From contig JAEMGR010000005.1 of NCBI GenBank assembly GCA_016458225.1, positions 558,001 to 622,000 on the forward strand: a DNA stretch of 64,000 nucleotides, given 5' to 3'. Positions 39,741-61,322 of this stretch are shown in pieces. This DNA comes from Myxococcaceae bacterium JPH2. GTDB lineage: Bacteria > Myxococcota > Myxococcia > Myxococcales > Myxococcaceae. The notes beneath the pieces are model-generated. The model had not been told where the DNA came from, did no database searches, and worked only from the letters and a program-made list of their open reading frames with translations. The first letter of the stretch is position 1. Every line of letters begins with the position of its first letter. The translations under genes and the position numbers were made by a program.

Positions 39741-39746
39741 GTCTCT

Positions 39747-43006: not shown

Positions 43007-43015
43007 AATGCGCCT

Positions 43016-43057: not shown

Positions 43058-43185
43058 CGTCGCTCCATACCCAGCCCTTAAAGACAAACACCCGCAACTG
43101 CTGCGCGGGACTCCCGTCTCGAACGGGCCCGTGGCTTGCTGAATCTCCAGGGCCCGCCTCCGCCCAGCCGGCGAGGAGTCCTGCG

Positions 43186-43992
43186 ATGAACAAGCAGTTT
43201 GTGTTGAGTAGTCATCGCCTCGCGCGTCGCGCCAGGTCAAACACACACATCCGTCAGCGGACCCACCTCCAGCGTGGTTTCTCCATGCTGCTGGCGCTGG
43301 GGCTCGTGGCGCTCGTCACCACGGCGGTGCTGGTGTCACTGCGTGCCGTCAGCGCCGAAGCCAGTCTCCAGGCGCATGAGCGGCGCGCCCGCGAGGCACT
43401 CTTCGCCGCCGAGGCGGGCATGGCGGAGGGGCGCGTGGTGGTGCAGTCACTGCTCGGCGCGAGCAACAACTACACGGGCGTCATCGAGGCCCTCGGCAAC
43501 CTGCGCACGCCGGGCGGAGGCGCCGATGGCTACGTCAGCGAGACAGCGGACGGGCTGCCCAGCGCGCCAGGCAACGAGTGGTACCAGGTCATCAGCCGCA
43601 CCGACTACACGATGTCGCGAGGCCCCGGCGCCGCCATCGACCCAGGAGTGAGCACGCCCAACGCCGAGCTGAACGGTCCCACCGGAGTGGCCATCGAGGA
43701 CTACCCGGAGCCCCTGGGCGTGCACTACCGCGTGTTCCTGGTGGATGACGCGGACGAGGCGCCTCTCTCCAACCGGCGCATCGATACCAACAACCAGGTG
43801 TGGCTGGTCTCCGTGGGCGAGGTGGATACGCCCGGAGGCATGCCCTACCGCACCATCATCCGCTCCCTCGTCACCAACGAGAACAGCATCGGTTCAGGCG
43901 GCGGCTATTGCCAGAAGGGCGGCTGTGACGCCGCTCATCAAGCGGGCGGCACGGGCGTCGTGGGTGGAGCCGGCAACGTCTACGGCGGGTAG
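43186..43992 (+). CDS. pilX: PilX-like minor pilin, operon A
   Basis: A 268-residue type IV pilus minor pilin of the PilX type. ATG 43186 is chosen because GAGGAG lies 8 nt upstream. A basic leader (SSHRLARRARSNTHIRQRTH) ends in QRG before the hydrophobic helix FSMLLALGLVALVTTAVLV, the prepilin cleavage site and transmembrane/assembly helix. Position +5 is Leu rather than Glu, as expected for PilX/GspK-class pilins. The rest is a soluble, low-hydrophobicity domain with a Cys pair near the C-terminus (GYCQKGGCDAAH). It opens an operon with PilY1, PilV, PilW and FimU, which form the tip/priming complex of the pilus. Confidence 0.88.
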   Translation: MNKQFVLSSHRLARRARSNTHIRQRTHLQRGFSMLLALGLVALVTTAVLVSLRAVSAEASLQAHERRAREALFAAEAGMAEGRVVVQSLLGASNNYTGVIEALGNLRTPGGGADGYVSETADGLPSAPGNEWYQVISRTDYTMSRGPGAAIDPGVSTPNAELNGPTGVAIEDYPEPLGVHYRVFLVDDADEAPLSNRRIDTNNQVWLVSVGEVDTPGGMPYRTIIRSLVTNENSIGSGGGYCQKGGCDAAHQAGGTGVVGGAGNVYGG

Positions 43993-44022
43993 TCGCACCG
44001 CGCATTCATTGGGGGATTCACC

Positions 44023-47000
44023 ATGCACCTCACACGCGTCCTCATCTCCGCTGGCGTGCTGACTGTGGCGGGAGTCGTCCTCGCCCAGGGCACGGATGGC
44101 GGCACCGGCACGAGCACCGGCGTCGGCTTGTGCATCGACACCACCGGCACCGACAAGCAGCCACCCTTCACCCGCGACGCGGGCATTCCCAGCGCCATCA
44201 TCGTCACGGAAGACGCGCCGCCCAAGCTGCGGCTCAACACCAACCTCAACGTGTTGGACCCAGAGCGCATCATCCTCCCCTTCGAGCAGGACATCGAAGG
44301 GCTCATCGTGGATGACCAGGCCGGCAACGGCGCGTCCCACACGCTCGGGTGGTTCTATTACGACGACCTCATCCGCCTGGGTTACGTGGACATCAAGGAC
44401 CCCAACGACCCCAACGACGATGTGTTGGTGGATCGCAACGGCAACGGGGTGCCGGACTTCCACGAGGACCTCTACAACATCTCCGCGGGAAGCTCCGCGC
44501 GCGCCTATGTCGGCCGCGATGGGCCGCGCTGCCCCGGCCGGGCGCTGTTCAACCACGTCATCCAGGACGGCGGCACCCGCCAGTTCCGCGAGCCGGACCT
44601 GCTGACGGGCCCGTGCAGCTCCGGCGGGAGCTACATGGCCAATCACGGTCCCAGCCGGTGGAACGCCGGGACGGGATATCCACCGCAACCCACCACGGGC
44701 GGCATCGTCGGTCAGGTCGTCAGCGACTTCGCCGGCAGCCCGTACGACTTCCTCGACAGCAACGACAACCTCAACGCGAGCGCCATCCCCGACAAGGTGG
44801 ATGGCTGGTTCAGCGACCGAGGCGCCTTCCCGCACATCCCGAACCTGCTCGAGCCGGCAGACCCCGCCAATGACAACAAAGGCATCGGCCACCTCGTCTT
44901 CCTCGCCACCGACGACGACGACAACAAGTGCCCCCAGTCTGGCACCGCCGAGTGCCTGTCTCCGCGCATCGCGTGGGACAAGAACGACGACCTTGGAGAC
45001 GGCATCCCGGACTACAAGGCGAGCGCCTTCGACACCAATGGTCGCCTCAAGCCCGGTCGCAGCGCCGCCGAGCCCATCACCGAGGAGGACCGGCGGGTGA
45101 AGATGGGCCACATCGACGGCAACCGTGAGCTGGTCTTCTTCCTCATTGTCTACGTGGAGCAAATCTACGGCGCCGCCACGGACTCGTGCTTCGCGACCCA
45201 GTACTTCGCGGACGGTGGCGCGCAGTGCAACCTCTGGATGCACGGGGACATCAACGTCTTCTTCTCCAAGACGTTGCTCAACATGGACCTGCACCAGAGC
45301 CTCAACACCACCACGGTGACGACCAAGAACCTGAGTTCGGGCTGGCTGAGCAGCACTGCGTACAACCGGTTGAAGCAAGACGGCGGCGCCTACGGCGGCA
45401 TCACCTTCCCCTCAGGCCAGACTCAGAAAGTGATGTCTTACAACCGTCGCGCGGCGCACACGCTCGTGGGTGCGCCACGAAACAACCCGCTCGTCTGGAT
45501 CCTCGGCTGGGAAGACCAGAACGCTGGCGGTAACCGGACGTACGACGACATCGTCATCCTCATCAACAAACAGAACAACGGCTCGTACCGCTCGGACGTC
45601 GTGTCAGACATCTCTCTGGACGAGGCCCAGGACTACACCATCACCGAGGTCACCTTCGAAGCGGATGACCAGGCGTTCTTCGTGGCCGATGGAGGAACGA
45701 GCAATGCCTGTCGCAGACAGGTGGGTTCCTCCGACGGCGGCACAAGCCTGAGCCAGCCGAAAATCACCTATCAGGTGGCACTGGACTGCAAGGAGTGCAC
45801 GGCCAACTGCGACACCGCCACGCCCACGTTCGTGGTGAAGAGCAACCCGTCCTGGGTGGACGTCCCAATGCCCGACCCGGACGGCGGTACGGCCGCGCGG
45901 CACGTGACATCCGTGGTGAATGACTTCTTGGAGCGCGGCTTCACCGGCTCGCAGCTGTGCTGGCGGGCCATGCTCGAGAGCCCGGGCGAGGCCTGTCAGC
46001 CCACCATCAACGACGTCAACGTCTCCTACAAGGCGCAGAAGGCGGGCGAGTACGGACGCGCATCCCTCACCCCGCTGGCCAACGCTGTCGTGTATGGCGT
46101 GTATGAGACGCCAGGCCGGACCTGGTTCAGCCCCACGGGCGTGAATCCCTCCGCCCGCGTCTACGACCATGGCGACGTGGACCTCGCGGACCGCGGCCAC
46201 GTCCACCTCAAGTTGATGTACGACCCGGATGACCCGAACACGGGCTACAGCCCGTTCCAGCCGCGCTGGGACTCTGGCGACCAATTGAGCGACTGGACGC
46301 GCACCACCAGCGCCAGCAACCTGGATGCGCGCAAGCTCGTGTCGTGGGACCCGACCGCGTCCCGGCGCTGGCGCGCCACCGCGGACTATCTCCAGGACAG
46401 CACGAGCCCCGCGTTCCCCGGCAACCTGTGCGGCATCGAGTCCGCGGGCGTCTACCAGTATGACCTGAACCACAAGAACGGCTGCGACGACGACGACCGG
46501 GCCACGCTGCGCAACTGGCTCTATGGCTGGGAATACCGAGACAGCACCACGGGCGCCTCGAGCACACGGCGCGCCTGGCCCATGGGCGGGGTGAACCTGT
46601 CCACCGCCGCCGTGGTGGGACCGCCCGGGATTCCCCCCTGGATGCTGAAGTCCTCGAACAACGAGCTGGACCGCTTCGTGTCGCGCTTCCAGAGCGACTC
46701 GCGCATCGCGCAGCGGCCCACGATGGCCTACGTGGGCACCACGCAGGGCTATCTGCACGCGCTGGCCACGGGGCGCTACCGCTCGAACGACGACACCTGC
46801 ACGAGCATCGTGGAGCACCAGGGCTACTTTGCTCGCGCGGGCGGCTGCACCAGCGGCCGCGACTACGGCACCGGCGACGAGGTGTTCGCGTACCTGCCTT
46901 ACAAACTGCTGCCCTTCTACGTGGAGAACTTCCGCCGAAAGGGCGACGCCAGCCTCGCGCGCGCCACCGTGGACGCCTCGCCCGCGGTGGCGGACGTGGA

Positions 47001-48348
47001 CCTGGGCCAGACCGGCGAGTACAGCGACACCACGGGCTACACCGCGACCGCCACCAACCAGTGGCGGCTGGACACCAGCAGCCCCACCACCGGCGCCAAG
47101 ACGGTGTTGGCGAGCGCCACGGGTCCCAAGCAGAGCGTCTTCTTCGCCTTGGACATCAGCAATCCGAGCGACACGAAGTTCCCCATGCCGCTGTGGGAGT
47201 TCGACATGCGGCGCGACCGGTTCCGCACCACGTCGGGCCAGCCGTGCGCGGACACGAACACCAACTGCAAGAGCTTGCCCGACCTGTTCGTGGCCGCGGG
47301 GGCCGTGAAGCCCGACACCACGGGCTCACGCCACGCCCCCACCGTCGTGCGCATGGACTTCGGCCCGGGCGGCACGAAGTGGGTGGCCGTCTTCGCCACC
47401 GACTACCTGCCCGACGCCACCAACCCCACCACCGCCAACAGCGTGGGCACCGTCTACCTCATCGACATGAAGACGGGCCTGCCGGTGCAGGTGCCGGGGG
47501 GCAGCACCCGCTCGCGGCTCGCGGGCATCGTCACCCTGGGCAGCGCCGCGGACGCCAACGAAGGCATCGGCGGTGAAGTCGCGGCGGTGGACGCCAACGA
47601 CGACGGCGTCTTCGACGTGCTCTACGTCCCCTCGACGTCGGGGAAGATCTACCGCATCAACACGAGCGACGTGGACACCACGGGCCGGCCGCTGGGCAAG
47701 GTGCTCGCCTCGTGCGTCATCGCGGACGCGAAGACGGTGACGGACGTGCCCGCCGCGTGGCGGCCCTACCAGCGCATCTTCTCCAGCATCTCCGTGAAGC
47801 TGGAGCGAGGCGGCAGCGGGAACGTGGCGCACATCTACTTCGGCACCGCCAACAGCCCGGACCTGGCCAACGAGCCCGAGGACCTGGCGCCCCTCGCCTC
47901 CAAGCCGCACTACTACTTGATGGCCTTCAACGACCCCCGTCCGCTGGGCGCGACCTGCGGCGGCACGTATGCGTGGGCCCAAGAGCTGGCGGCGGGACAG
48001 CTCGTCTGGGGTGGCGTGGCCTCGAGCAGCGACAACGTCTTCACCACCACGGCCTCGGGCAAGGCCGCCAACATCTGCAGCCTGAACGCGGAGGGCGGCA
48101 AGCTCTACGCCTACAGCGCGGCTGGCGTCGCGGCACCGGGCAACGGCGCGTCGCTCGGAGGTCAGGGCGTGAACGCGCCCGTGCTCTACGACAACCACCT
48201 CATCATCCTCACGGCGGACTCGAAGATTCGCGTCCTGGGCGAGAAGGGCAAGTTCAACAACCCAGGCGGCGCGGGCCTGCAACGTCGCTCCAACGTCCTC
48301 ATCTGGGACGTGCGCTCCGGCTCGAAAATCCAGGAGGTCGTGCCGTGA
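44023..48348 (+). CDS. pilY1: PilY1-type pilus tip protein, operon A
   Basis: A 1441-residue secreted PilY1, the adhesin and priming factor at the T4aP tip. A signal peptide ends about residue 21 (LTVAGVVLAQG). An N-terminal region of about 600 residues contains an EF-hand-like acidic loop (DRNGNGVPDFHED) and a DUF4114-like element (WILGWEDQNAGG, DDIVILI). The last 600-700 residues form the PilY1 beta-propeller, starting TMAYVGTTQGYLHALATG. The calcium loop is DANDDGVFD (1190-1198). No VWA domain is evident. Its paralogue lies in operon B. The stop overlaps the pilV start by 4 nt. In M. xanthus, PilY1 and minor pilins are known to form the pilus tip; that this copy does so is inferred. Confidence 0.93.
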   Translation: MHLTRVLISAGVLTVAGVVLAQGTDGGTGTSTGVGLCIDTTGTDKQPPFTRDAGIPSAIIVTEDAPPKLRLNTNLNVLDPERIILPFEQDIEGLIVDDQAGNGASHTLGWFYYDDLIRLGYVDIKDPNDPNDDVLVDRNGNGVPDFHEDLYNISAGSSARAYVGRDGPRCPGRALFNHVIQDGGTRQFREPDLLTGPCSSGGSYMANHGPSRWNAGTGYPPQPTTGGIVGQVVSDFAGSPYDFLDSNDNLNASAIPDKVDGWFSDRGAFPHIPNLLEPADPANDNKGIGHLVFLATDDDDNKCPQSGTAECLSPRIAWDKNDDLGDGIPDYKASAFDTNGRLKPGRSAAEPITEEDRRVKMGHIDGNRELVFFLIVYVEQIYGAATDSCFATQYFADGGAQCNLWMHGDINVFFSKTLLNMDLHQSLNTTTVTTKNLSSGWLSSTAYNRLKQDGGAYGGITFPSGQTQKVMSYNRRAAHTLVGAPRNNPLVWILGWEDQNAGGNRTYDDIVILINKQNNGSYRSDVVSDISLDEAQDYTITEVTFEADDQAFFVADGGTSNACRRQVGSSDGGTSLSQPKITYQVALDCKECTANCDTATPTFVVKSNPSWVDVPMPDPDGGTAARHVTSVVNDFLERGFTGSQLCWRAMLESPGEACQPTINDVNVSYKAQKAGEYGRASLTPLANAVVYGVYETPGRTWFSPTGVNPSARVYDHGDVDLADRGHVHLKLMYDPDDPNTGYSPFQPRWDSGDQLSDWTRTTSASNLDARKLVSWDPTASRRWRATADYLQDSTSPAFPGNLCGIESAGVYQYDLNHKNGCDDDDRATLRNWLYGWEYRDSTTGASSTRRAWPMGGVNLSTAAVVGPPGIPPWMLKSSNNELDRFVSRFQSDSRIAQRPTMAYVGTTQGYLHALATGRYRSNDDTCTSIVEHQGYFARAGGCTSGRDYGTGDEVFAYLPYKLLPFYVENFRRKGDASLARATVDASPAVADVDLGQTGEYSDTTGYTATATNQWRLDTSSPTTGAKTVLASATGPKQSVFFALDISNPSDTKFPMPLWEFDMRRDRFRTTSGQPCADTNTNCKSLPDLFVAAGAVKPDTTGSRHAPTVVRMDFGPGGTKWVAVFATDYLPDATNPTTANSVGTVYLIDMKTGLPVQVPGGSTRSRLAGIVTLGSAADANEGIGGEVAAVDANDDGVFDVLYVPSTSGKIYRINTSDVDTTGRPLGKVLASCVIADAKTVTDVPAAWRPYQRIFSSISVKLERGGSGNVAHIYFGTANSPDLANEPEDLAPLASKPHYYLMAFNDPRPLGATCGGTYAWAQELAAGQLVWGGVASSSDNVFTTTASGKAANICSLNAEGGKLYAYSAAGVAAPGNGASLGGQGVNAPVLYDNHLIILTADSKIRVLGEKGKFNNPGGAGLQRRSNVLIWDVRSGSKIQEVVP

Positions 48349-48863
48349 GTCGCGTCGCGTTCACCGGCGCGCCTCGCGGCGTCACGCTGCTGGAGACCAT
48401 GGCCACCGCCGTGGTGCTGCTCGTGGGGATGCTGGCGGTCATGGCCGCCCTGCTGGCCGCCTCCAAGCAGAACCGCCGCAACCTCGTCCAGACACAGGCG
48501 ACCCACGTCGCGGAACAGGAGCTGGAGCGCATCGCGGGCACCCGCTGCGACAACATCGACCGGGCCGACCCCTGCGCGAACATCAAGCGAATGGACCAGA
48601 CCCAGCGCAAGGTGTTCTGGAGCGCCAACGGCGAGCCCTCCGACAGCCCCTCTCCTCCAGGTGCCCAGCCGCAGCTCGAGTACGACGTCGCCATCGACGT
48701 GGACCCGCCCTTCGAGGGCAGTGAGGTGGGCTCGCCCAGCCTCACGCGGCTCGAGGCCACCGTGCCCCTGGCCAACGTGCTCAACGTGCGCGTCACCGTG
48801 AGCTGGGAGCTGCCAGGAGCGGAGCGGCGCGCCGTGGCCCTGCAAACCCGGGTGGCGCCATGA
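48345..48863 (+). CDS. pilV: PilV-like minor pilin, operon A
   Basis: A 172-residue prepilin starting at GTG 48345, overlapping the PilY1 stop (GTGA) with AGGAGG 8 nt upstream. The cleavage motif is APRG then VTLLETMATAVVLLVGML, with Glu at +5 of the mature protein. It has an N-terminal assembly helix of about 25 residues, then a soluble domain with one Cys pair (RCDNIDRADPC) and the end VALQTRVAP. This ending is nearly the same as in operon B (VVLQTRVAP). Adjacent pilW follows with a 4-nt overlap. Confidence 0.88.
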   Translation: MSRVAFTGAPRGVTLLETMATAVVLLVGMLAVMAALLAASKQNRRNLVQTQATHVAEQELERIAGTRCDNIDRADPCANIKRMDQTQRKVFWSANGEPSDSPSPPGAQPQLEYDVAIDVDPPFEGSEVGSPSLTRLEATVPLANVLNVRVTVSWELPGAERRAVALQTRVAP

Positions 48864-50092
48864 GCCATCGCCTCCACTCGCGAGGGTTCTCGCTCATCGA
48901 GCTGCTCATCGCCTCCGCCATTGCCATCGCGCTCATCTCCGCCGCCATCTCCGTGGGATTGCAGTTGCAACGCCGTGGCGTTTTGGAAGAACGGACGATG
49001 GAGACCCAGAACGCGGCCCGGGCCGCGCGGGACCTCTTCGCCTTCGGCGTCCAGCGCGCGGGCGCGGGCGCGGGCTCGTCACCGCTCGCCATCGGCAACA
49101 CGCCCGCGAGCCGGCCAGACCTGCGCTACCCGGTCTGGGTGACGACGCAGGCCGACTTCGCCACGGACCCTTCGTTCGCACTGCCGTCCGGTCCCTATCA
49201 AGACCTGCGCTCGGATGTGCTCCGCATCTGGGAGACGGATCCCGGCAACATGCTCCGGCTCGTGGCGTGTCAGAGCGGGACGTTCGCGTGGACGGGCGGT
49301 CGGCTGTGCACGCAGACCCGGCCACCCGAGGGGCTCAAGAACCTGTTGGTGGCGGTGGTCGCGCCGCACGGCGCCGGAGGCAAGCGACCCATCGCGTGCG
49401 TCGGGATGTTGGGCAGCACGTTCGACCAGACCATCAACCCGCCCCTGGACAGTGAATACTCCGTGGACTTCTCGCCTGGCGTCCCGGGGCTGCCAGCCCT
49501 CGCGTCCACGCACGAGTGCGGCGCGCCCCCTGTCGCGAGCGGCGTGGACGGAGGCGGCGGCGTCCCCCTCCAGCTCTGGGACGCACCGGACCTGTATGTC
49601 ATGCCCATCACCGCGCGCGACTTCCGGGTGAACTGGAAGGGCGGTGCACCCGCGCTCGAGATGGACTCCGATGGCTTCATCCCCGACTCGGGCTTCACGG
49701 TGGTGTCGCGAGACATCGAGCGGCTCCAGGTCTTCCTGGGCGTCGTCCCCACGGATAACTCCGACGCGGGGGTGCTGCTCTTCCCGGACGCGGTCGCGGG
49801 ACGGCCCGCGCTCGACACCTGCACGTTCAGCTCCTGTTCCCCCTTCATCACGTGGGACGCTGGGACGCTCGTCTCGGCGGATGAAGGGCCGGACACTCCC
49901 CGCGACAAGTTGATGCAGCGCGTGCGGTTGGTGGAGCTGCGCATCACCGCGCGCTCGGAGCGACTGGACCGGCTGGCGGACCTGGCCACCGACGGAGGGC
50001 TCGACGATGACGGCAACATCCAGGACGGCTACAAGCGGAGGCACTCCGTCATCCGCCTGTCTCCGAGGAACTTCGGCTATGCGGGCCAATGA
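48860..50092 (+). CDS. pilW: PilW-like minor pilin, operon A
   Basis: A 410-residue prepilin with the cleavage site SRG then FSLIELLIASAIAIALI, Glu at +5. The rest is a large soluble domain with several Cys, ending DGYKRRHSVIRLSPRNF, near-identical in style to the operon B copy (DGFKRRTFTFRVTPRNF). The ATG overlaps the pilV stop (ATGA), and the end overlaps the fimU start by 14 nt. Large PilW-type minor pilins of about 400 residues are typical of myxobacterial clusters. Role: part of the tip/priming complex with PilY1. Confidence 0.87.
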   Translation: MSHRLHSRGFSLIELLIASAIAIALISAAISVGLQLQRRGVLEERTMETQNAARAARDLFAFGVQRAGAGAGSSPLAIGNTPASRPDLRYPVWVTTQADFATDPSFALPSGPYQDLRSDVLRIWETDPGNMLRLVACQSGTFAWTGGRLCTQTRPPEGLKNLLVAVVAPHGAGGKRPIACVGMLGSTFDQTINPPLDSEYSVDFSPGVPGLPALASTHECGAPPVASGVDGGGGVPLQLWDAPDLYVMPITARDFRVNWKGGAPALEMDSDGFIPDSGFTVVSRDIERLQVFLGVVPTDNSDAGVLLFPDAVAGRPALDTCTFSSCSPFITWDAGTLVSADEGPDTPRDKLMQRVRLVELRITARSERLDRLADLATDGGLDDDGNIQDGYKRRHSVIRLSPRNFGYAGQ

Positions 50093-50708
50093 CAGACACG
50101 CGGGCCGGCTGCGCGCGGGCATGAGCCTGTTGGAGCTGATGGTGACCTTGGCCATCCTTACGGTCTTCGTCTCCCTGAGCGTCGCGGGCTTCCAGGGGAT
50201 GACGGAGCGGCAGCGCGTGGGAGGCGCGCAGCGGGAGATCCTCCTGATGATGCGGGAGGCGCGGCAGCAGGCGCGCGCCTCGCTCCAGCCCGTGCGGCTG
50301 ACCCAATGGACCACCGATGAGGACGGGCGCGCTGTCACCCGCATCCGCTGGGAGCGACTGCCGTGCGACAACACCTGGGGCACGACCTGTCCCCGCGTGG
50401 AGTGCGCCACCAATGCCTGCGGCGTGGGCGCGTGCGACTGCGGCCCGGGCGTAGGGCAGCCCGTGGTCATCCCCCGCGGACTGGAGGCCACTTCGCTCGA
50501 CCGCCTCTGCTGGTTGGGGGACTCGGCCCGGCCCGTGGCGCCGCAGGGCACCACCGTCTGTGTCGAAGCCTCCACGCCTCCCGCCCAGGGCAGCCTGGTG
50601 CTGCGTCGCGACGGAGTGCCGGACCAGGTCATGGACGTGGACGGCCTGACGGGGACCGTCCGCGTGGTCGACTGCACCCGGCTCCCCAGCGCTCCTGGCT
50701 GTTCGTAG
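50079..50708 (+). CDS. fimU: FimU/GspH-like minor pilin, operon A
   Basis: A 209-residue prepilin. ATG 50079, with GAGGA about 9 nt upstream, overlaps the pilW end by 14 nt. The cleavage motif is LRAG then MSLLELMVTLAILTVFVSL with Glu at +5. A Cys-rich segment follows (PCDNTWGTTCPRVECATNAC, GACDC), likely disulfide-bonded in the periplasm, similar to the paralogue in operon B (ACGNTWDNGTCP). FimU/GspH pilins sit at the base of the minor pilin complex. A cytochrome c gene begins 76 nt later. Confidence 0.88.
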   Translation: MRANDRHAGRLRAGMSLLELMVTLAILTVFVSLSVAGFQGMTERQRVGGAQREILLMMREARQQARASLQPVRLTQWTTDEDGRAVTRIRWERLPCDNTWGTTCPRVECATNACGVGACDCGPGVGQPVVIPRGLEATSLDRLCWLGDSARPVAPQGTTVCVEASTPPAQGSLVLRRDGVPDQVMDVDGLTGTVRVVDCTRLPSAPGCS

Positions 50709-50784
50709 GACGACGCCAGCGCCCGGCCGCCGTATAGTCACCGCATCCCGAGCGACCTGGGTCGCTCCCTGACGGAGACGGTGA

Positions 50785-51105
50785 ATGAAGACGCGGGTTG
50801 CCCTCGTGCTGGCCCTGTCGCTGGCTGCCACTGCTCACGCCGAGACCACGGCGGAGGTTTGGACGGCCAAGTGCAAGTCCTGCCACGGCGAAGACGGCAA
50901 GGCTCACACGACCCTGGGCAAGAAGGAGTCCATCGTCGACATGAGCCAGCCTGCCTGGCAGAAGGCCGAGACCGACGCCGACATCCGCGAGGTGATTGCC
51001 GATGGCTCCTCGCGCAACTCCAAGATGAAGGCCTACAAGGACAAGCTCACGCCGGAGCAGATTGACGCGCTGGTGGGATACATCCGCACGTTCCAGAGCA
51101 AGTAG
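50785..51105 (+). CDS. Class I c-type cytochrome, canonical His/Met
   Basis: A 106-residue secreted cytochrome c with a signal peptide ending AHA. The haem site is CKSCH (30-34), and the distal ligand candidate is Met81 in NSKMKAYKDKLTPEQ, followed by the C-terminal helix IDALVGYIRTF. All canonical features of a small class I cytochrome are present. GGAGACGG lies near the ATG. It follows the operon A fimU gene at 76 nt and is probably co-transcribed. Cytochromes near minor pilin genes are notable because TfcP, encoded with operon B, supports PilY1 folding; whether this one is an electron carrier or has a similar role is open. Confidence 0.88.
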   Translation: MKTRVALVLALSLAATAHAETTAEVWTAKCKSCHGEDGKAHTTLGKKESIVDMSQPAWQKAETDADIREVIADGSSRNSKMKAYKDKLTPEQIDALVGYIRTFQSK

Positions 51106-51164
51106 GGCGCCCCTGAATAACCCCGGCGCGGCAGCGTCCGGGGAACGGAGAATCGGAGCCGCCC

Positions 51165-51509
51165 ATGAAGAACCTCACTGTCGCCCTCGTGTTCGTGCTG
51201 TCCCTGGTCAGCCTGTTCGCCACCGTGCGAGCAGAGGCACTGTCCACGCCGCGCATCGAGAAGGGCCTGTCACGCCCCGAGCCCCTCCTGGCCGCGAAGC
51301 CCAAGGGCGGAGACGGCAAGGGCGGCGGCAAGGGGGGAGGCAAGGGCGGCAACGGGGACGACAAGGGCGGCAAGGACAACGAAGAGGACGAAGAGGAGTA
51401 CCGCCAGCAGTACCAGGGCCTGAGCCAGAGCGCCGCGCTGGAGCTGGTGGACCCGGGCGCCCTCGACAACCTCCTCCGCCTGCAGGCCCGCGTCCGCCGA
51501 GGCCGCTGA
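51165..51509 (+). CDS. Small secreted Gly/Lys/Asp-rich protein of unknown function
   Basis: A 114-residue protein with a cleavable signal peptide (MKNLTVALVFVLSLVSLFAT, cleavage near VRA-EA). The middle is low complexity: a run of Gly and Lys (KGGDGKGGGKGGGKGG), then an acidic stretch (NEEDEEEY). The end is helix-like, with RQQYQGLSQSAALEL and DNLLRLQARVRRGR. It follows the cytochrome gene by 59 nt; an A/G-rich stretch (GGGGAACGGAGA) precedes the ATG. I do not recognise a family. The charge-rich sequence suggests a flexible, secreted, possibly polysaccharide- or metal-binding protein, but no function can be claimed. Confidence 0.6.
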   Translation: MKNLTVALVFVLSLVSLFATVRAEALSTPRIEKGLSRPEPLLAAKPKGGDGKGGGKGGGKGGNGDDKGGKDNEEDEEEYRQQYQGLSQSAALELVDPGALDNLLRLQARVRRGR

Positions 51510-51594
51510 GCACCGCCGCCAAAACCCACACCAGGAGTCCTTCTCCCCCCGCCGCACACGCGCGCGGGGTGGGTCTGCAAAAAGTAGGGGGCTC

Positions 51595-51605
51595 GCAAAC
51601 TTTGC
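51595..51605 (+). promoter_or_regulatory. Candidate operator palindrome upstream of pilus operon B
   Basis: GCAAA C TTTGC (a 5+1+5 palindrome) in the context CTCGCAAACTTTGC repeats the motif at 43014-43027 apart from the central base. It lies 104 nt before the pilX ATG at 51710. Confidence 0.55.
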
Positions 51606-51609
51606 AATG

Positions 51610-51624
51610 GAGAACACTGTTCTC
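51610..51624 (+). promoter_or_regulatory. Second palindrome in the promoter of operon B
   Basis: GAGAACA C TGTTCTC is a perfect 7+1+7 palindrome, 4 nt after the first. It has no counterpart in operon A and could bind a different regulator. Confidence 0.4.
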
Positions 51625-51709
51625 TCGGCAACATCGAGCCACACTCCAAGTGATTTCAGTATGTTAGGGTAGGCAACTGTCGGCATGCGGATTGCTCGCT
51701 TGTCGACGT

Positions 51710-52480
51710 ATGCAGCCTTCAAGAGATGGAACGCGGGGGGACCGCGCTCGCCAGGGAGTTCACGCCGCGGCGCGGCGCCGGACCGGGGGCTTCGCCCTCA
51801 TCGTGGCGCTGGGAGTCGTGGCGGTCGTCACCCTGGCGGTGATGCTCAGCTTCAGCGTCGTTGGACGCGAGTCCGATGCGCAGGCCGACGCCCGGCGGAA
51901 GAAGGAAGCCTTCTTCGCGGCGGAGGCCGGCATGGCCGAGGGGCGCGAAGTGATGCGCCTGCGGCTGGGTGAGAGCGACCTGACCTACAACCAGGCCATC
52001 ACGGCACTCGGCGCCGCGGTGGCCGAGCCCGGACTCGGCTCCCCCGGGCACCCCTGGTTCGAGGTCCTCCCCGGCCCCGGCGCGGACCGTTGGAACTACT
52101 ACCCGCTCACGCCAGCGACCATGGATGCTTCCGAGTTGGCCAGCGGCGCGAGCACGCGGGTGGCCAATCAGCTTTACGAGGACTATCCCACGCAGAGCAC
52201 CACGCGATACCGCGTGTTCTTGCGGGACGATGACGACGGAGACAGCGACTTCGCCTCGGATTCCAACCGGCAGGTCTGGCTCGTCGCCGTGGGTGAGGTG
52301 CTCAATCCGCAAGGACGCCCCACCCGCTCCATCGTGCAAGCCCTTGTCACCAACGGCAATGCCCAGACGATGAACGGCCCCGGCTGCGTCAACCGCGGGT
52401 GTGGTCCCGACAACAACTTCAACAACAACCAAGACCAAGACTCGCCCACCAATCTGGGCAACGTCAAAAACATTCCGTAG
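51710..52480 (+). CDS. pilX: PilX-like minor pilin, operon B
   Basis: A 256-residue minor pilin with the cleavage site RRTGG then FALIVALGVVAVVTLAVML; position +5 is Val, without Glu as expected for PilX/GspK-class pilins. The start is uncertain: ATG 51710 is chosen, while a TTG 18 nt earlier would also be in frame; neither has a clear ribosome binding site. The C-terminal half shares the pattern NRQVWLVAVGEV with its operon A paralogue (NNQVWLVSVGEV), followed by a Cys pair (GCVNRGC) and an Asn-rich tail (NNFNNNQDQD). Gene order pilX-tfcP-pilY1 follows. Confidence 0.86.
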   Translation: MQPSRDGTRGDRARQGVHAAARRRTGGFALIVALGVVAVVTLAVMLSFSVVGRESDAQADARRKKEAFFAAEAGMAEGREVMRLRLGESDLTYNQAITALGAAVAEPGLGSPGHPWFEVLPGPGADRWNYYPLTPATMDASELASGASTRVANQLYEDYPTQSTTRYRVFLRDDDDGDSDFASDSNRQVWLVAVGEVLNPQGRPTRSIVQALVTNGNAQTMNGPGCVNRGCGPDNNFNNNQDQDSPTNLGNVKNIP

Positions 52481-52498
52481 GCCCCCGGAAAGCCACTC

Positions 52499-52951
52499 AT
52501 GATTCGCATGAAACTCATGTTGCTGCCCCTGGTGCTCCTGCCGTGTCTGGCGGGCGCGGAGGACTCCGGGGAGACGCTCTTCAACAAGGCCTGCTCGCAT
52601 TGTCATACAGCGCGGCGCTCCGACAAGGAGGCCAAGGCCCATCCCACGGTGGCGCGTGACAGCAAGGTCATCCCGTCGATGGACATGGCCATCCAGAACC
52701 GCTCAGCCGAGCAGCTTCGCACCTGGATTCAGGCCCCTCACAAGGTGAATGCGAAGACCGGCTGTGACACGCGGCAACTGCGCGCCGAGGACGTGGACGC
52801 GGTGATGGGCTACCTGTCCACGCTCGCCGTGCCGCCCCAACTGCCGCGCCAGGAGATGTTGCGCCAGCAGTTGCAAGAGAAGCTCAAGGCCCAACGCGCC
52901 AGCCAGCAATCCAACACCCACCAGCCCAGCTCCTCCCCGGGGGTGAAGTGA
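52499..52951 (+). CDS. tfcP: TfcP-like noncanonical cytochrome c
   Basis: A 150-residue secreted cytochrome c with a signal peptide (MLLPLVLLPCLAGA) and haem site CSHCH (32-36). There is no methionine at the expected distal position; a Cys lies there (KTGCDTRQLR, Cys89). This fits His/Cys ligation reported for M. xanthus TfcP, which helps PilY1.1 take up calcium rather than carrying electrons. A C-terminal extension of about 40 residues (QLPRQEMLRQQLQEKLKAQR, then Ser/Pro-rich) is also like TfcP. It lies between pilX and pilY1 of operon B. Orthology is strong by context plus motif, but the ligand is inferred from sequence only. Confidence 0.82.
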   Translation: MIRMKLMLLPLVLLPCLAGAEDSGETLFNKACSHCHTARRSDKEAKAHPTVARDSKVIPSMDMAIQNRSAEQLRTWIQAPHKVNAKTGCDTRQLRAEDVDAVMGYLSTLAVPPQLPRQEMLRQQLQEKLKAQRASQQSNTHQPSSSPGVK

Positions 52952-55900
52952 TGCGCACCTTAGTCCGAGCCCTCGCGGCCCTTTCCCTGCTCGCGATGCC
53001 CGTGAGTGGGAGCGCGGCCCCCGCCAAGCTGTGCCAGGACGATCTCTCGCAGGATCGCCAGCCGAACTTCAACACCGGTGACGGCAGCCTCCAGGTCGCC
53101 AACCAGACCATCGTCACCACCAACGATTCTCCGCCGCGGCTCCAGCTCAACACGAACCTGGCGCGCCTGGACCCCGAGCACATCTACTTCCCGTTCGATC
53201 AGCACGTCACCATCAGCTACGTGTATGAGTCCGCCGGCGCCTCGCACGCGCTGGGCTACATGTACCTGGATGACGTGAAGGCCCGCGGATACCTGGACGC
53301 CAACGGCAACCTCGCGGATACGAACAACAACGGCATCCTCGACCTGCACGAGGACCTGTTCAACCTCGCGCCGACGACGCCCGCCAGCGAGGCCCGTCCA
53401 TACATCGGCAGCGCGCGACGCTGCACGGGCAAGGTCTTCACCTCAGGAGGGAAGACCTATACCCAACCCGAGCTCGCCATGAAGGGCTGTGACTCGGGTG
53501 TCTTCGAGCGCAAGTCGCTGTCCGACGCGCGCCCCGGGCATGTCACGGAAGACATCGACGTCGACATCATCGGTCGGTCGGAGAGCGACTCCTTTGTCGC
53601 GAGCGACGCTGACTACTCAGACAACGGTCTGTTCCCGCACATCCCCAACCTGCTGGAGCCTGCCTCTGTATCGAACGGCAACAAGGGCATGGGGAAGATG
53701 GTCTTCCTCCTCGCCGACGACGACAGCGACCGGAAGACCTACAACAACCTCTCTCCCGTCGTGGACTCGGAGGACTCGGATGACGGCGTTCCGGACTACG
53801 ACACCTCCAAGTACGACTCCAGCGGTCTGGTGCGAAACACCAATCAGGATCCCGGAGTCACGGCCTTCGACCGGACCGTCGACCTGGGACAGATTCAAGG
53901 CGGCAAGGAGATCGTGTTCTTCCTCGTCGTCTACTACGCGCCCCGTCACAACCTCGACGCGGGCAATGCCTATCCCTGCCTGAAGCGAGATCCGGCGGAT
54001 GGAAAGTGCCTGCTCCACTTGAAGACGCCCGTCTCGGTCTTCTTCTCCAAGGCTGCGTGGAACCTGGACCAGAACTTCATCGGTGGGCGGGTCACGGAGC
54101 GCAACATCGGCTGCTCGTATGACGACGGCTGCAACCCCGACGACGCCACGAGCGTGAACAACCTCGGCTGCGCGACGGTAAACCCCGTTGGCCCGAAGGC
54201 GTGCGGCTGGCTGGCCGGCCCGAAGTCGGACACGGGATCCACGCTCGGCCGTCTGAAGAACCTGGCGGTCTACGGCAACCTGGACATGCCCATGGAGAAG
54301 GTCACGCTGGCGCGACCGCCGCCTCCTGCCAGTGGCGTGGACATGAACTACATGCCGCACGTCATCGTGGGCGCGCCGTCCACGGACCCCTTCCGCTGGA
54401 TTCTTGGCTTCGAGGACCTCAGCGGCGGTGGTGACCGCGACTTCAACGACGTCGTGTTCGTGGTCAACAAGGAGAACGGCGGAGGCCTGCGCTCCGCCAC
54501 CGTGTCCGGCGACATCTCGCCCGACATCGCCGAGGACTTCACCATCACCAAGGTGCGCTTCAAGCGACAGGATGACTACGCTCCGGCGCCACGAACCTGC
54601 GCGGGCGGCGCGCCGTGCTGGGCCGAGGAGACGCCGGGAGCCTGCACGCCGCCCAGCGGCGTCCGCCCGTCCATCCAGTACTCGGTGGCGGTGGATTGTC
54701 GCAACTGCTCCAACGGCACCTGCACGCCAAACCTCAATCCTCAGTGGATCCCGGTGAACTTCGATCCCGCGCCGAACAACCAAGTGAAGGAGCTGGACAT
54801 CCAGGCGCTCGGCTTCACCGGTTCCCAGCTCTGCTGGAAGGTGGACATCAGCAGCCCGAACGAGCGGTGCCGCCCCATCATCGACAACATCGACGTGGGC
54901 TATCAGGCCGTCCGCTCCGGCAACTACGCACGCGCCTCGCCGTCCACCTTGGGCAATGCCGTGGTCTGGGGTGTCAACGAGACGCCTGGCAAGAGCTGGG
55001 GCCAGAACTGGCCTACCTCGGGCGTGCCCGCGGCGGGCAATCGCCTCTATGACGGGAGCAAGGATTTCACCCCGCGGGGACACTTGTATCTCGAGTCTCT
55101 CTATGACCCCGAGAACCCGGACGCGACCCACCTCGTCCAGCGCTGGGAGGCAGGCCGGGTGATGGCGCTGTCGTTCTCGGGCAGCGGCTCTCCGTCGAGC
55201 CGCAACCTCTACACCGTGGACAGCACCGGCGCGCGCATCAACCTCACCCAGGTGGACGCGGGTAGCAACGCGACGGCGGCCGTCAACCCGCTCTTCCCTG
55301 ACTCGCTCTGCGACACGCTCATCAATGGGCAGCGCGTCTATGACCTCAACCATGACGGCGCATGCCGCACGCCCAGCGGCTCCACGGCGGACAAGAAGAG
55401 CAGCTCGGACGACCAGAACGACCGCAAGGCCCTCATTGACTGGCTCTACGGCTGGGAGGATCGCCACGACGTCAGCCCCACCAGCGCGGCGAAGCGTCCG
55501 TGGCCCTTCGGCGGCATCAACCTCTCCACCGTGGCGCTCGCGGTCCCGCCGTTCTACGACACGTGGTACCAGAACGCGCGTCCCGCCGAGCGCGACCTGT
55601 ACCGCCGCAACTTCGCGGAGCCGCTCAAGCAGCGGCCGACGATTGCCTACGTCGGCACGATGACGGGCCTCCTGCATGGCTTCAACTCGGGCGACTTCCG
55701 TGGAGAGAAGCAGGACACCTGCGCCGAGAAGCCGCAGCAGCGCGGATTCTTCCTTCCGGACGGCGCCTGCCAGACGAGCAGTCCCTATACCCATCGCGCC
55801 TATGGAACCGGCGAGGAGAGCTTCGCGTATCTGCCGCGAATGCTGCTGGACCGCTACCGGAACAACTACGTGCAGTTCCCCGGCTCCGCGAGCCTGCCGC

Positions 55901-57195
55901 GCCCGCAGGCGGATGCCTCTCCCGCCATCGCGAACGTGGACCTGGGCATCGTGAGCAAGCCGGCCTGGACGCGAGAGACCACGGCCTCTCGCACGACGGG
56001 CGCCAAGACGGTCCTGGTCTCCGCGACGGGTAAGAACAGCCCGGTGGTCTTCTCGCTCGACATCACCAACCCCGCGGACTCCTGGTACCCGCTGCCCATG
56101 TGGGAGTTCAGCCTCGCGGACACGGCGGTGAACACGGCCTTCACCAACGCTCGCGCCACCAACCCGACGGTAAAGCTGCCGGACAACACGGGCTCTCGCC
56201 ATGCCCCCTCCGTGGGGCGCATCGCATGGGGCCCCACGGATTCCGTCTGGGCGGCGGTGGTTGGCACCGACTATGTGCCCGCCTCGGGGCGCACGGGCTC
56301 TGTCTTCCTCATCGACATGAAGACCGGGCGGCCGATGAACTACGGAGGCACGGGTGCTGGCGCCAACGCGGGCGTCATCACGCTGGACTCGGGTTCGGGC
56401 GTGGCCGCGGAGTCCGCGCTGATGGACCTGGACCAGGACGGCACCTACGACGTCATCTACGTGCCCACCACGGCCGGCCATGTCTACCGCATCAACCTGC
56501 GCAAGGTGGACACCACCGCGAGTCTGGGCACCAAGGTCCAGACGTGTCTCGTGGCGGACGCCCCCCTGGCCGCGTCGTTGGACCCCAACGCCGCACAGAG
56601 CCAGGACCAGAGCTACCAGCAGATCTACTCCAACCTCGCGGTGAAGCTCGTGCCGGGCCCCAATGGCCCCGCGGTGCGCTTCTTCTTCGGCACGGGCGAC
56701 AACCCGGACGAGTTCTCCGACGGGCCCGCCGACAAGAGCCACTATCGCTACCATCTGTTCGGCTATGAGGACCAGAACCCCACCGGCAACGGTGGCTGTG
56801 CGGTGAACGCGCTCACCCCCATGTGGGTGGTGCCCCTCGAAGAGGGCCAGACGGTGTGGGGTGGCGTGGCCATCAATCAGAAGGACGTCTTCGCGACCAC
56901 CGCCGTGGGCAAGGCCGCGGATATCTGCAATCTGAGCGACTCGGAGAGCGGCAAGTACTACGCGGTCAGCCAGACCCCGACGGGGCCCATCACGGCCCCC
57001 CATGGCACAGACCTGGAAGGCCATGGCGTCAATGCGCCCATCGTCCACGACAACCATCTCTTCATCCTCACCGCGACGGGCGGCATGCAGATCCGAGGCG
57101 AGGAGAAGTGGAACAACGGCAAGTCCGCCAATGGCGCCACCCGGTCGCGTATCCTCATCTGGGAGCCGGTTCCGGACGGAAAGCTGCCGCAATGA
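52951..57195 (+). CDS. pilY1: PilY1-type pilus tip protein, operon B
   Basis: A 1414-residue secreted PilY1 paralogue of the operon A protein. A signal peptide (LVRALAALSLLAMPVSGSAA) ends near residue 23. The N-terminal region carries an acidic loop (DTNNNGILDLHED) and a DUF4114-like segment (WILGFEDLSGGG, DRDFNDVVFVV). The C-terminal propeller begins TIAYVGTMTGLLHGFNSG. The calcium loop is DLDQDGTYD (1159-1167). ATG 52951 overlaps the tfcP stop; a GTG 3 nt earlier is possible. With TfcP next to it, this resembles M. xanthus PilY1.1, whose stability depends on calcium. The final bases overlap pilV by 4 nt. Confidence 0.93.
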   Translation: MRTLVRALAALSLLAMPVSGSAAPAKLCQDDLSQDRQPNFNTGDGSLQVANQTIVTTNDSPPRLQLNTNLARLDPEHIYFPFDQHVTISYVYESAGASHALGYMYLDDVKARGYLDANGNLADTNNNGILDLHEDLFNLAPTTPASEARPYIGSARRCTGKVFTSGGKTYTQPELAMKGCDSGVFERKSLSDARPGHVTEDIDVDIIGRSESDSFVASDADYSDNGLFPHIPNLLEPASVSNGNKGMGKMVFLLADDDSDRKTYNNLSPVVDSEDSDDGVPDYDTSKYDSSGLVRNTNQDPGVTAFDRTVDLGQIQGGKEIVFFLVVYYAPRHNLDAGNAYPCLKRDPADGKCLLHLKTPVSVFFSKAAWNLDQNFIGGRVTERNIGCSYDDGCNPDDATSVNNLGCATVNPVGPKACGWLAGPKSDTGSTLGRLKNLAVYGNLDMPMEKVTLARPPPPASGVDMNYMPHVIVGAPSTDPFRWILGFEDLSGGGDRDFNDVVFVVNKENGGGLRSATVSGDISPDIAEDFTITKVRFKRQDDYAPAPRTCAGGAPCWAEETPGACTPPSGVRPSIQYSVAVDCRNCSNGTCTPNLNPQWIPVNFDPAPNNQVKELDIQALGFTGSQLCWKVDISSPNERCRPIIDNIDVGYQAVRSGNYARASPSTLGNAVVWGVNETPGKSWGQNWPTSGVPAAGNRLYDGSKDFTPRGHLYLESLYDPENPDATHLVQRWEAGRVMALSFSGSGSPSSRNLYTVDSTGARINLTQVDAGSNATAAVNPLFPDSLCDTLINGQRVYDLNHDGACRTPSGSTADKKSSSDDQNDRKALIDWLYGWEDRHDVSPTSAAKRPWPFGGINLSTVALAVPPFYDTWYQNARPAERDLYRRNFAEPLKQRPTIAYVGTMTGLLHGFNSGDFRGEKQDTCAEKPQQRGFFLPDGACQTSSPYTHRAYGTGEESFAYLPRMLLDRYRNNYVQFPGSASLPRPQADASPAIANVDLGIVSKPAWTRETTASRTTGAKTVLVSATGKNSPVVFSLDITNPADSWYPLPMWEFSLADTAVNTAFTNARATNPTVKLPDNTGSRHAPSVGRIAWGPTDSVWAAVVGTDYVPASGRTGSVFLIDMKTGRPMNYGGTGAGANAGVITLDSGSGVAAESALMDLDQDGTYDVIYVPTTAGHVYRINLRKVDTTASLGTKVQTCLVADAPLAASLDPNAAQSQDQSYQQIYSNLAVKLVPGPNGPAVRFFFGTGDNPDEFSDGPADKSHYRYHLFGYEDQNPTGNGGCAVNALTPMWVVPLEEGQTVWGGVAINQKDVFATTAVGKAADICNLSDSESGKYYAVSQTPTGPITAPHGTDLEGHGVNAPIVHDNHLFILTATGGMQIRGEEKWNNGKSANGATRSRILIWEPVPDGKLPQ

Positions 57196-57719
57196 CAGAC
57201 ACGCGTAGACACGCGCCCCGAGGCGCGACCCTGTTGGAGGTCATGGCCACCATGGCGGTGCTGCTGCTCGGCATCGCCGCGGCCATGACCGTGGTGGCGG
57301 CGACCAGCCGTTCCAATCGGAGGACACTCACGTCCATCCAGGCGCAGCTCATCGCCGAGCAGTACCTGGAGAACATCACGGCCCAGGGCTGCAACCCGGT
57401 TCCCCCGGCGTGCAGCAATCTGGCGGCGTGGGACAAGCGGCGCGAACTCGTGTACCAGACCGCCGCGGGGCAGTTCAGCACCACGCCGCCCGGAGCGGGT
57501 GTCACGGCGCGCCAGTACGAAGTGGCCGTCGACGTCGATGGGCCCACGCTGCCCGGCTCCATCGAGAACGGCTCTCAGGGTGAGCCGTCCATCTCCCGCA
57601 CGCTGGTGGGCACCAATACGGGCAACCTCGTCAACGTCCGCGTCTCGGTGAGCTGGGAGGAACTCGGCTCGCGAGCGGGCCGTCAGGTCGTCGTCCTCCA
57701 GACTCGGGTGGCCCCGTGA
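57192..57719 (+). CDS. pilV: PilV-like minor pilin, operon B
   Basis: A 175-residue prepilin; ATG 57192 overlaps the PilY1 stop (ATGA). The cleavage site is APRG then ATLLEVMATMAVLLLGIAA with Glu at +5. The C-terminus (VVVLQTRVAP) is almost the same as in the operon A PilV, confirming paralogy. A Cys-containing segment (QGCNPVPPACSN) lies mid-protein, at the same place as the Cys pair in the operon A copy. Its stop overlaps the pilW start by 1 nt. Confidence 0.88.
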   Translation: MTDTRRHAPRGATLLEVMATMAVLLLGIAAAMTVVAATSRSNRRTLTSIQAQLIAEQYLENITAQGCNPVPPACSNLAAWDKRRELVYQTAAGQFSTTPPGAGVTARQYEVAVDVDGPTLPGSIENGSQGEPSISRTLVGTNTGNLVNVRVSVSWEELGSRAGRQVVVLQTRVAP

Positions 57720-58957
57720 TGCGCCGCATGAGGAAGCCTCGGGGCTTCACCCTGCTGGAGGTCATGGTCGCTGCGGGCCTGGCTGTCATCGTGCTCGCGA
57801 CGGGCCTCGCCGTGGGCATGCAGATGCAGCGGCGCGCCGTCTTCGAGGAACAGACGATGATGGCCCAGGTCACGGGCAAAGCCGTCAAGGACCTGCTGAC
57901 CACGGACTTGGAGCGCGCAGGCCAGGGTATGGGGAATTCCCCCATGACCTACGGGCAGAACGACAGGCGAGTCGCCCTCAGCGCCTGGACCGAGCCCGAC
58001 TTGAAAACCACCGTCGCGCAGCCTTCGCTGATGCCGGACTTTTCGTTCAACCTGCCTTCCGGCGTCTACGCGAACATGAAGTCGGACGCGCTCCAACTCG
58101 TCTGGGGCGATACACAGTCCATGATTACGCTCCAGGCTTGCCCGCCGGGATCCGGGCCTGGAGTTCGAGAGAAAGACACGGACAACTACTGCGCGGCCAC
58201 CAATCCGCCCCTGGGACTACAACCGCCAGCCGGGCAGACAACAGCCGCGCTGGTGGTGAATCCATTCAAGGAAGCCATTCCACCGCTGGCCGCCTGTCAC
58301 ATCAAGATCTCCTCGATCAGCACCTCCCCCCCGAAGGTCAACGCGAATCCTGGCACCAATAACGACACCGGCGATCCCTGCTCTTCCACGACCGAAGGGC
58401 CGAAGAAGCCGGATTGGACCAACGACGGCTGGCGCGTCATGCGGACCCTGGGCGCGGCATACCGCGTGAACTGGGTATCGGCGGGGACGGAGCCACAGCT
58501 CGAGTACCTGCCGCCCGGAGCAGGCTCGTGGCAGGTCGTGAGCCGCGACGTGGAGCGCATGAAGGTGCGCATGGGCGTCATGGACCTGCTCAGCCCCAAC
58601 CTCGATCTGCGGTGGTTCCCGGACGCTGCGGCGGGACGTCCTCCGATTGATGGCTGCACGATCGCCAAGATGACCAGTGGTGAGTGCAGCCTTGACTCGA
58701 CTGCGGATGGTGGCTCGCCACTGCTCCCTCTTCCCACCACGAACGCCGATCTCATCCTGCAACTGCGCGAGCGCGTGCGAGAGGTGGAGATCACCCTGAC
58801 CATCCGCACGCGTCGGGCCGATCGCGACGCCGTGGATCTCTCCGCCGTGGATGAAGAGGGCATGGTGAAGGATGGCTTCAAGCGGCGTACGTTCACGTTC
58901 CGGGTGACGCCGCGAAACTTCGCGTCCACTGGCCTCCTGCCTCCGATTGGACCCTGA
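57719..58957 (+). CDS. pilW: PilW-like minor pilin, operon B
   Basis: A 412-residue prepilin. ATG 57719 overlaps the pilV stop (TGATG); a GTG 3 nt earlier is possible. The cleavage site is KPRG then FTLLEVMVAAGLAVIVLA, with Glu at +5. A long soluble domain ends DGFKRRTFTFRVTPRNF. It shares MQRRAVFEEQTM with the operon A copy (LQRRGVLEERTM) just after the helix. A second pilin gene follows after 2 nt. Confidence 0.87.
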   Translation: MRRMRKPRGFTLLEVMVAAGLAVIVLATGLAVGMQMQRRAVFEEQTMMAQVTGKAVKDLLTTDLERAGQGMGNSPMTYGQNDRRVALSAWTEPDLKTTVAQPSLMPDFSFNLPSGVYANMKSDALQLVWGDTQSMITLQACPPGSGPGVREKDTDNYCAATNPPLGLQPPAGQTTAALVVNPFKEAIPPLAACHIKISSISTSPPKVNANPGTNNDTGDPCSSTTEGPKKPDWTNDGWRVMRTLGAAYRVNWVSAGTEPQLEYLPPGAGSWQVVSRDVERMKVRMGVMDLLSPNLDLRWFPDAAAGRPPIDGCTIAKMTSGECSLDSTADGGSPLLPLPTTNADLILQLRERVREVEITLTIRTRRADRDAVDLSAVDEEGMVKDGFKRRTFTFRVTPRNFASTGLLPPIGP

Positions 58958-58959
58958 CC

Positions 58960-59580
58960 ATGAAGTCCGTGCGTGGAATGACGTTGCTGGAGATCATGGT
59001 CGCCTTGGCGATCCTTGGCATCCTCACCAGCGTGGCGGTGGTGAACTTCCAGTCGCAGCTCACCACCCAGCGCGAGAACGAGGCGACGCGCGCGCTCTGG
59101 TCCTCCGCGCTGAGCGCCCGCCAGCGCGCCGTCGCCACCAATCAGCCGGTGCGCGTCGTGGTGGAGGACAACGTCACGCAGGCGGATGGCAGCCTTCGCA
59201 CGGTGGCGCGCTGGGAACGGCTCGCGTGTGGCAACACCTGGGACAACGGCACGTGCCCCATGGCCGCGTGCCTGTCCGCCACCTGCCGCACCAATGCCGC
59301 CTGCTGCAACGAAGTGGGGCCGGACATCGTGCTGCCGCGCACCATGACGGCCACGGAGATCAACGGCCTGTGCTTCCTGCCGGGCACGGGGCGCGCGGTG
59401 ACCAACATGGCCTGCCCGCAGAATGCCGCCATCAATCCCATCACCGCGCGGTTCATGTTCTCGTCGAGCCGGGCGCGCTCTGTCTTGTCCGTGGAGCCGC
59501 TCACGGGGCTGTCCAACGTGCTGGACTGTGATTCCCAGTACGTCGTGACGCACCCCGAGGCCGCCTGCACCGCGCCTTGA
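58960..59580 (+). CDS. fimU: FimU/GspH-like minor pilin, operon B
   Basis: A 206-residue prepilin with the cleavage site VRG then MTLLEIMVALAILGILTSV, Glu at +5. The Cys-rich region (ACGNTWDNGTCPMAACLSAT, then CRTNAACC) mirrors the operon A FimU. It is the last gene of operon B and ends at a strong hairpin (59587-59621). It begins 2 nt after pilW, so translation is coupled. Confidence 0.88.
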   Translation: MKSVRGMTLLEIMVALAILGILTSVAVVNFQSQLTTQRENEATRALWSSALSARQRAVATNQPVRVVVEDNVTQADGSLRTVARWERLACGNTWDNGTCPMAACLSATCRTNAACCNEVGPDIVLPRTMTATEINGLCFLPGTGRAVTNMACPQNAAINPITARFMFSSSRARSVLSVEPLTGLSNVLDCDSQYVVTHPEAACTAP

Positions 59581-61316: not shown

Positions 61317-61322
61317 CCTCGA

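Follow-up and report, generated by a model that had tools for sequence, protein, structure and literature searches.

Two operons of minor-pilin and PilY1 genes lie head to tail beside a polysaccharide locus in the Citreicoccus genome of Myxococcaceae bacterium JPH2, and they belong to two different, anciently separated classes. The window, meaning the whole stretch of 64,000 nucleotides that was analysed (contig JAEMGR010000005.1, positions 558,001 to 622,000), holds operon A (43186-50708; pilX-pilY1-pilV-pilW-fimU) followed on the same plus strand by operon B (51710-59580; pilX-tfcP-pilY1-pilV-pilW-fimU), and in our reading of the open frames all of the named genes are intact and stand in this order. 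The original prediction, made from the letters of the window, had described two complete paralogous operons, in tandem and in the same direction, beside a BPS-type polysaccharide locus, and this description holds. The tandem recurs in a second Citreicoccus genome, that of C. inhibens, with a PilY1-A that is 93% identical, so faulty assembly of a single strain does not account for it. Among 145 genomes of the order, A and B are adjacent only in these two (G000 and G055). From the gene content, the operon classes, the shared chromosomal frame, the empty sites and the cis-elements, we infer an activator, co-expression, a function at the tip and an order of losses and moves: Citreicoccus would make two tip complexes under a shared activator, and the tandem would be an older BPS-side state that this genus has kept, a reading that we consider rather probable as a whole.

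The two operon classes

Operon A is of the PilY1.2 type and operon B is of the PilY1.1 type with tfcP, and the split between them is older than the genera. In a PilY1 tree of 69 rows, A groups with 17 Myxococcus BPS-side operons, including that of M. xanthus AM003 (support 100), and B falls inside the PilY1.1-type clade (support 100); the concatenated minor pilins give the same division into classes. BLAST identities between A and B are 40% for PilX, 36% for PilY1, 43% for PilV, 33% for PilW and 37% for FimU, and the PilY1.2 of M. xanthus AM003 is 56% identical to PilY1-A.

In operon A, pilX (43186-43992) is followed by pilY1 (44023-48348), which encodes 1441 amino acids, and then by pilV (48345-48863), which has a GTG start overlapping the pilY1 stop and orthologues in related loci, pilW (48860-50092) and fimU (50079-50708), the last two with the Pfam family N_methyl. 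The operon adjoins the BPS locus and has the same wzc, methyltransferase and TM566 neighbours as in M. xanthus AM003. Operon B begins with pilX at about 51710-52480, where the start is inferred and an alternative TTG at 51692 would fall within the promoter. As in a PilY1.1 cluster, pilX, pilY1, pilV, pilW and fimU form a single operon, with tfcP (52499-52951; Pfam Cytochrom_C) immediately 5' of pilY1 (52948-57195; 1415 amino acids; Pfam DUF4114 for the head and T4P_PilY1 for the C-terminal propeller) and pilV (57192-57719), pilW (57716-58957) and fimU (58960-59580) behind it. The TfcP of operon B has a CxxCH motif and, when aligned with its M. xanthus homologue, reads CSHCH with the conserved distal Cys of TfcP as predicted heme ligand. 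M. xanthus cluster 1 (PilY1.1 and TfcP, MXAN_0362/0363) is like B in its genes, in the distal Cys of TfcP, in an intact DUF4114 pocket and in its clade. In several cases the start of an operon gene overlaps the stop of the gene before it, an arrangement also described for the clusters of M. xanthus (PMC13190605).

The two PilY1 proteins probably present different adhesive heads that bind differently, as B keeps an intact DUF4114 pocket for calcium and sugar and that of A is altered. B-type PilY1 proteins have the motif GGDRDFND[VI]V (GGDRDFNDVV in operon B), and A-type proteins, in those where the motif was found, have GG[DN]RTY.DIV (GGNRTYDDIV in operon A), which agrees with the Asp noted as missing from this motif in PilY1.2 (PMC9109919). 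On its own, PilY1-A reached no Pfam family, but it aligns with PilY1-B over the whole length and carries the altered pocket motif, which speaks for the presence of both DUF4114 and the propeller. A profile search with PilY1 A and B against solved structures gave no match at E 0.01.

Other genes resembling pilY1 were met in the comparison. The contig itself carries a third pilY1 about 390 kb to the left of the tandem (L192 6857-11320, G000:C5), encoding 1487 amino acids with a propeller recognised by Pfam. Free-standing PilY1-like genes in rows of two or three (G058:C1:876307-882604; G057:C488:21085-28551; L030 9488-17326) match only the N-terminal half containing DUF4114, over about 600-750 amino acids, and are without the propeller. 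One further locus (L074, G108:C56:17601-21449) is a decayed pilY1; it has internal stops, and no minor pilins were recognised around it. A Myxococcus-type PilY1.1 cluster, sister to that of G100, also occurs in a record titled Comamonas sp. KCTC 72670 (L044), for which mislabelling or contamination is the probable cause.

A shared chromosomal frame and the probable history of the tandem

Both operons are set in a frame of genes that is common to Myxococcus, Corallococcus and Citreicoccus, in the order wzc, methyltransferase, TM566, slot 1, small cytochrome c, kg, slot 2 and mfd, with a PAS kinase gene before mfd in Myxococcus and Citreicoccus. Slot 1 holds A and slot 2 holds B in Citreicoccus. 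In Myxococcus, A fills slot 1 while slot 2 is empty (four Myxococcus genomes have neither operon), and Corallococcus has B in slot 2 and an empty slot 1 in all loci read. In outgroup genera TM566 is present, often with the cytochrome c gene as well, and neither operon is found in the frame. M. xanthus cluster 2 (PilY1.2, MXAN_1020) resembles A in its pilX-pilY1-pilV-pilW-fimU order, its frame genes on both sides and its clade, but its slot 2 is without a second operon. The BPS-side tfcP operon of Corallococcus similarly resembles B, as it stands in slot 2 after the cytochrome c and kg genes with the same palindrome and promoter spacing (see below), but this locus differs from that of Citreicoccus in its empty slot 1.

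The left end of the frame is wzc (37548-39971, minus strand), encoding a polysaccharide copolymerase with a fused tyrosine-kinase-like domain (Pfam Wzz, GNVR and AAA_31), which matches the description of WzcB (PMC7310880) and has orthologues about 80-85% identical at the same position in Myxococcus and Corallococcus. On the plus strand follow the methyltransferase gene (40450-41295, start approximate; Pfam Methyltransf_23), which is kept in all frames read, and the gene for TM566 (41292-42992), a conserved protein bordering slot 1 that is present in 86 of 96 family genomes. Two further plus-strand genes, absent from the original prediction, lie between the operons: that of the small cytochrome c (50785-51105; Pfam Cytochrome_CBB3, 5e-11) and kg (51165-51509), which encodes a short secreted Lys/Gly-rich protein with no match in a Pfam search. 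We rejected the idea that this small cytochrome is another TfcP, as its gene belongs to the frame even in genomes without A, with an unchanged position in Myxococcus, in Corallococcus and in several genera of the outgroup, and the protein has a canonical-looking CxxCH with Met, not the distal Cys. After slot 2 comes the gene of a PAS histidine kinase (59603-61339, start approximate, minus strand; Pfam PAS_4, HisKA and HATPase_c), present in the Myxococcus frame and not found in the Corallococcus loci read, and then mfd, which starts at 61323 on the plus strand and runs onward. Long opposite-strand frames are antisense to mfd, and two such right-flank frames (m418 and m464) were rejected as genes.

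As the original prediction had stated, M. xanthus keeps its two sets at separate places, and the one beside the BPS genes is the PilY1.2 set; in M. xanthus-like genomes they are about 0.8 Mb apart. Unlike operon B, cluster 1 lies by ileS, and all of the Myxococcus loci of its type that we compared are at this single site. The interval between ileS and lgt is 12.5 kb in Myxococcus G118, whereas the two genomes of Citreicoccus, four of Corallococcus and the outgroup genome G045 have 2.7-6.6 kb there, and no operon was found on reading both Citreicoccus intervals. Because the site is empty in Citreicoccus, Corallococcus and the outgroup, the ileS position, and hence the separation of the M. xanthus sets, is probably derived.

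The most likely and simplest history is an ancestral tandem on the BPS side, from which A was lost in Corallococcus and B was moved, or lost and regained, in Myxococcus, since slot 2 is common to Citreicoccus and Corallococcus and slot 1 to Citreicoccus and Myxococcus. An rpoB tree built from matched open frames joins Citreicoccus with Corallococcus (100/99), as does a tree of TM566 and the methyltransferase (support 100), and in the PAS kinase tree the Citreicoccus copy stands outside Myxococcus. Several observations weigh against this history. Inside the B clade the branch order is weakly supported: in the PilY1 tree Citreicoccus B pairs with the slot 2 operon of Corallococcus (81-95 in the Shimodaira-Hasegawa-like approximate likelihood ratio test), in the minor-pilin tree it pairs with the second type of Corallococcus copy (85), and the concatenation gives 70, with the alternative not rejected (approximately unbiased test, p-AU 0.20). 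For A, the concatenation rejects a clade of Myxococcus only (p-AU 0.0003), which PilY1 alone does not (0.09). Of the two A subtypes found in Myxococcus, one has Citreicoccus A as its sister, a position that allows for transfer. In addition, we found no relic of A in slot 1 of Corallococcus and none of B in slot 2 of Myxococcus, and the junctions are clean.

A rival to this history is a secondary assembly, in which Citreicoccus had B alone in slot 2 and A came to slot 1 from a Myxococcus-like donor by way of the frame genes. Such an origin would suit the sister relationship of Citreicoccus to Corallococcus, whose loci are all without A, and the nesting of Citreicoccus A next to one Myxococcus subtype. 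The two subtypes occupy a fixed site (L060, L075, L077, L079, L106, L108 and L115 versus L063-L067, L070 and L080-L082), and as their distribution in Myxococcus disagrees with rpoB, the A cassette does get exchanged between species at that site. However, the flanks of slot 1 (TM566 and methyltransferase; cytochrome c and kg) and the kinase are without a sign of Myxococcus origin, Citreicoccus A is as deep as the old splits among Myxococcus A operons, so that no recent donor is seen, and the A2 subtree with Citreicoccus outside it is the pattern expected from vertical descent. We regard secondary assembly as unlikely, though worth keeping in mind. The original prediction had taken the matching protein ends as an argument for duplication of a whole operon. 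A recent local duplication, in which Citreicoccus would have doubled one operon in place before the copies diverged, would suit the adjacency, shared direction, same gene order and similar protein ends. That A and B are paralogous operons stands, but the duplication is ancient rather than local: at 33-43% identity they fall in clades older than the genera, A with PilY1.2 and B with PilY1.1 operons. The matching ends (LQTR-A in PilV, RNF in PilW) are no argument for local duplication, as they are shared by many far-apart operons of both types, and a genuine B-type tandem, in the Pyxidicoccus-like genome G120, has closely related copies. Trees and identities lead us to reject local duplication, which is extremely improbable. 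The comparison of trees and gene order that had been proposed as a check thus places A and B in separate clades with M. xanthus clusters 2 and 1, and ancestral adjacency is better supported than local duplication. The G120 tandem itself (L058, L059; G120:C1:1039205-1051674) consists of two B-type operons at the ileS-linked site.

Control elements of the two operons

Each of the two Citreicoccus pilX genes is preceded by a predicted sigma54-type promoter of the form GG-N10-GC (GGCCCGTGGCTTGC, 43126-43139, for A; GGCATGCGGATTGC, 51682-51695, for B), and about 85-110 bp upstream of this element lies a palindrome, CTCGCAAAGTTTGCG (43014-43028) 5' of operon A, a candidate enhancer of an NtrC-type activator, and CTCGCAAACTTTGC (51592-51605) 5' of operon B, all on the plus strand. 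The 9.0 Mb of the genome contain exactly two copies of the tight palindrome CGCAAANTTTGC, one at the A promoter and one at the B promoter, and a reversed-pattern control gave none; for its 11-base core the chance expectation is 0.01 in the window. A sigma54-type GG-N10-GC element ending in TTGC was found 5' of pilX in 17/17 A-type operons (1.1 expected from shuffles), and the element precedes 12/12 slot-2 operons (0.6 expected), 15/17 promoters at the ileS site (1.1 expected) and all four promoters of the other Corallococcus copies (0.5 expected). A looser palindrome, GCAA-N3-TTGC, is present upstream of the same 17/17 A-type and 12/12 slot-2 operons, and CGCA-N5-TGC upstream of 16/17 ileS-site operons; none of the four other Corallococcus copies has the palindrome. 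In a consensus scan between the operons we found neither a sigma70 promoter nor an intrinsic terminator, and a hairpin at 51505-51600 is no more than mildly stable for its composition (z -2.0).

In five genomes, CTCGCAANNNTTGC has 12 distinct sites, and eight of them belong to promoters of the pilX genes treated here: four in Citreicoccus (A and B of each genome), two in Corallococcus (slot 2 of two genomes) and two in one Myxococcus (pilX1 and pilX2). The other four comprise two in Corallococcus, 5' of an unlinked PilY1-like gene, and two in Myxococcus that lie inside open frames. The Corallococcus gene (L187 2-3584; L188 3-3724) has a weak propeller match (E 0.002). What is unusual is the placement of CTCGCAANNNTTGC and its tight form, not its genome-wide count.

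The likely reader of the palindrome is an NtrC-type activator, since the NtrC-type NmpR of M. xanthus binds a similar site, GCGCA-N5-TGCGC, above sigma54 promoters (PMC11841059). The Citreicoccus palindrome shares with the NmpR enhancer the GCA-N5-TGC core and the position 5' of a sigma54 element, but it has different outer bases (CTC...), and the resemblance to the published core is one of sequence alone. The NmpR pathway has been tied to pilus-driven motility (PMC11841059). Because both operons have a sigma54-type promoter and a common upstream palindrome, one NtrC-type activator probably switches both A and B; the original prediction's suggestion of co-regulation, as a hypothesis, gains sequence support from this shared rare palindrome and these promoters. 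More tentatively, a single NtrC-type activator acting at CTCGCA-N5-TGCGAG may govern a small regulon devoted to PilY1 in Myxococcus, Corallococcus and Citreicoccus, with the two different adhesive tips of Citreicoccus mixed or exchanged coordinately from one locus next to the polysaccharide genes.

Joint control has to be weighed against separate regulation, in which B would be the vegetative tip set and A a developmental one, the pattern reported for clusters 1 and 2 of M. xanthus; this alternative concerns regulation only and is compatible with either history of the locus. Expression of M. xanthus cluster 2 rises during development and HsfA does not bind it, and cluster 1 is HsfA-regulated during growth (PMC9109919, PMC13190605). 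HsfA binds the pilY1.1 promoter and not that of pilY1.2 (PMC9109919), which makes it a candidate activator for one operon class only. The two classes are thus not simply co-expressed in M. xanthus, and this counts against a common switch, as does the finding that, over the whole genome, loose CTCGCAANNNTTGC barely exceeds its reversed control in number. In Citreicoccus, moreover, A and B each have their own promoter. However, the tight palindrome is at both of these promoters and nowhere else in the genome, and the same class of element precedes both operon classes in Myxococcus. On this evidence separate regulation appears somewhat doubtful.

Proposed function and significance

We propose that the tandem encodes two distinct tip complexes for a type IVa pilus machine, of PilY1.2 type from A and of PilY1.1 type from B. 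Each operon would supply four minor pilins and one PilY1 that prime and cap the pilus, and TfcP would aid calcium binding by the B adhesin. Through the paired control sites A and B may be switched jointly, and tips could be exchanged between the two sets. Only with clusters 1 and 3 of M. xanthus is it known that such a tip and priming complex assembles on the pilus and supports motility (PMC7541494, PMC8833165), and the biology of the M. xanthus orthologues has been described in several studies (PMC7541494, PMC8833165, PMC9109919, PMC13190605). Citreicoccus would have kept the old tandem, Corallococcus would have lost A, and the B-type operon of Myxococcus would have come to its ileS-linked site.

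The papers that we read mention neither the tandem nor the shared frame nor the palindrome, and the words Citreicoccus, Corallococcus, promoter and BPS are absent from the main text of a 2026 survey of myxobacterial PilY1 (PMC13190605). The arrangement is real and made of known parts; its history is informative, and the regulatory prediction drawn from it is sharp. The far-apart tip clusters of M. xanthus gain a simple history if, as seems to be the case, a tandem on the BPS side came first. Two questions also become testable, namely the identity of the activator that controls the PilY1 clusters and the presence of both types of tip in the same cell, and the two Citreicoccus control sites with their orthologues provide concrete targets for this at the bench.

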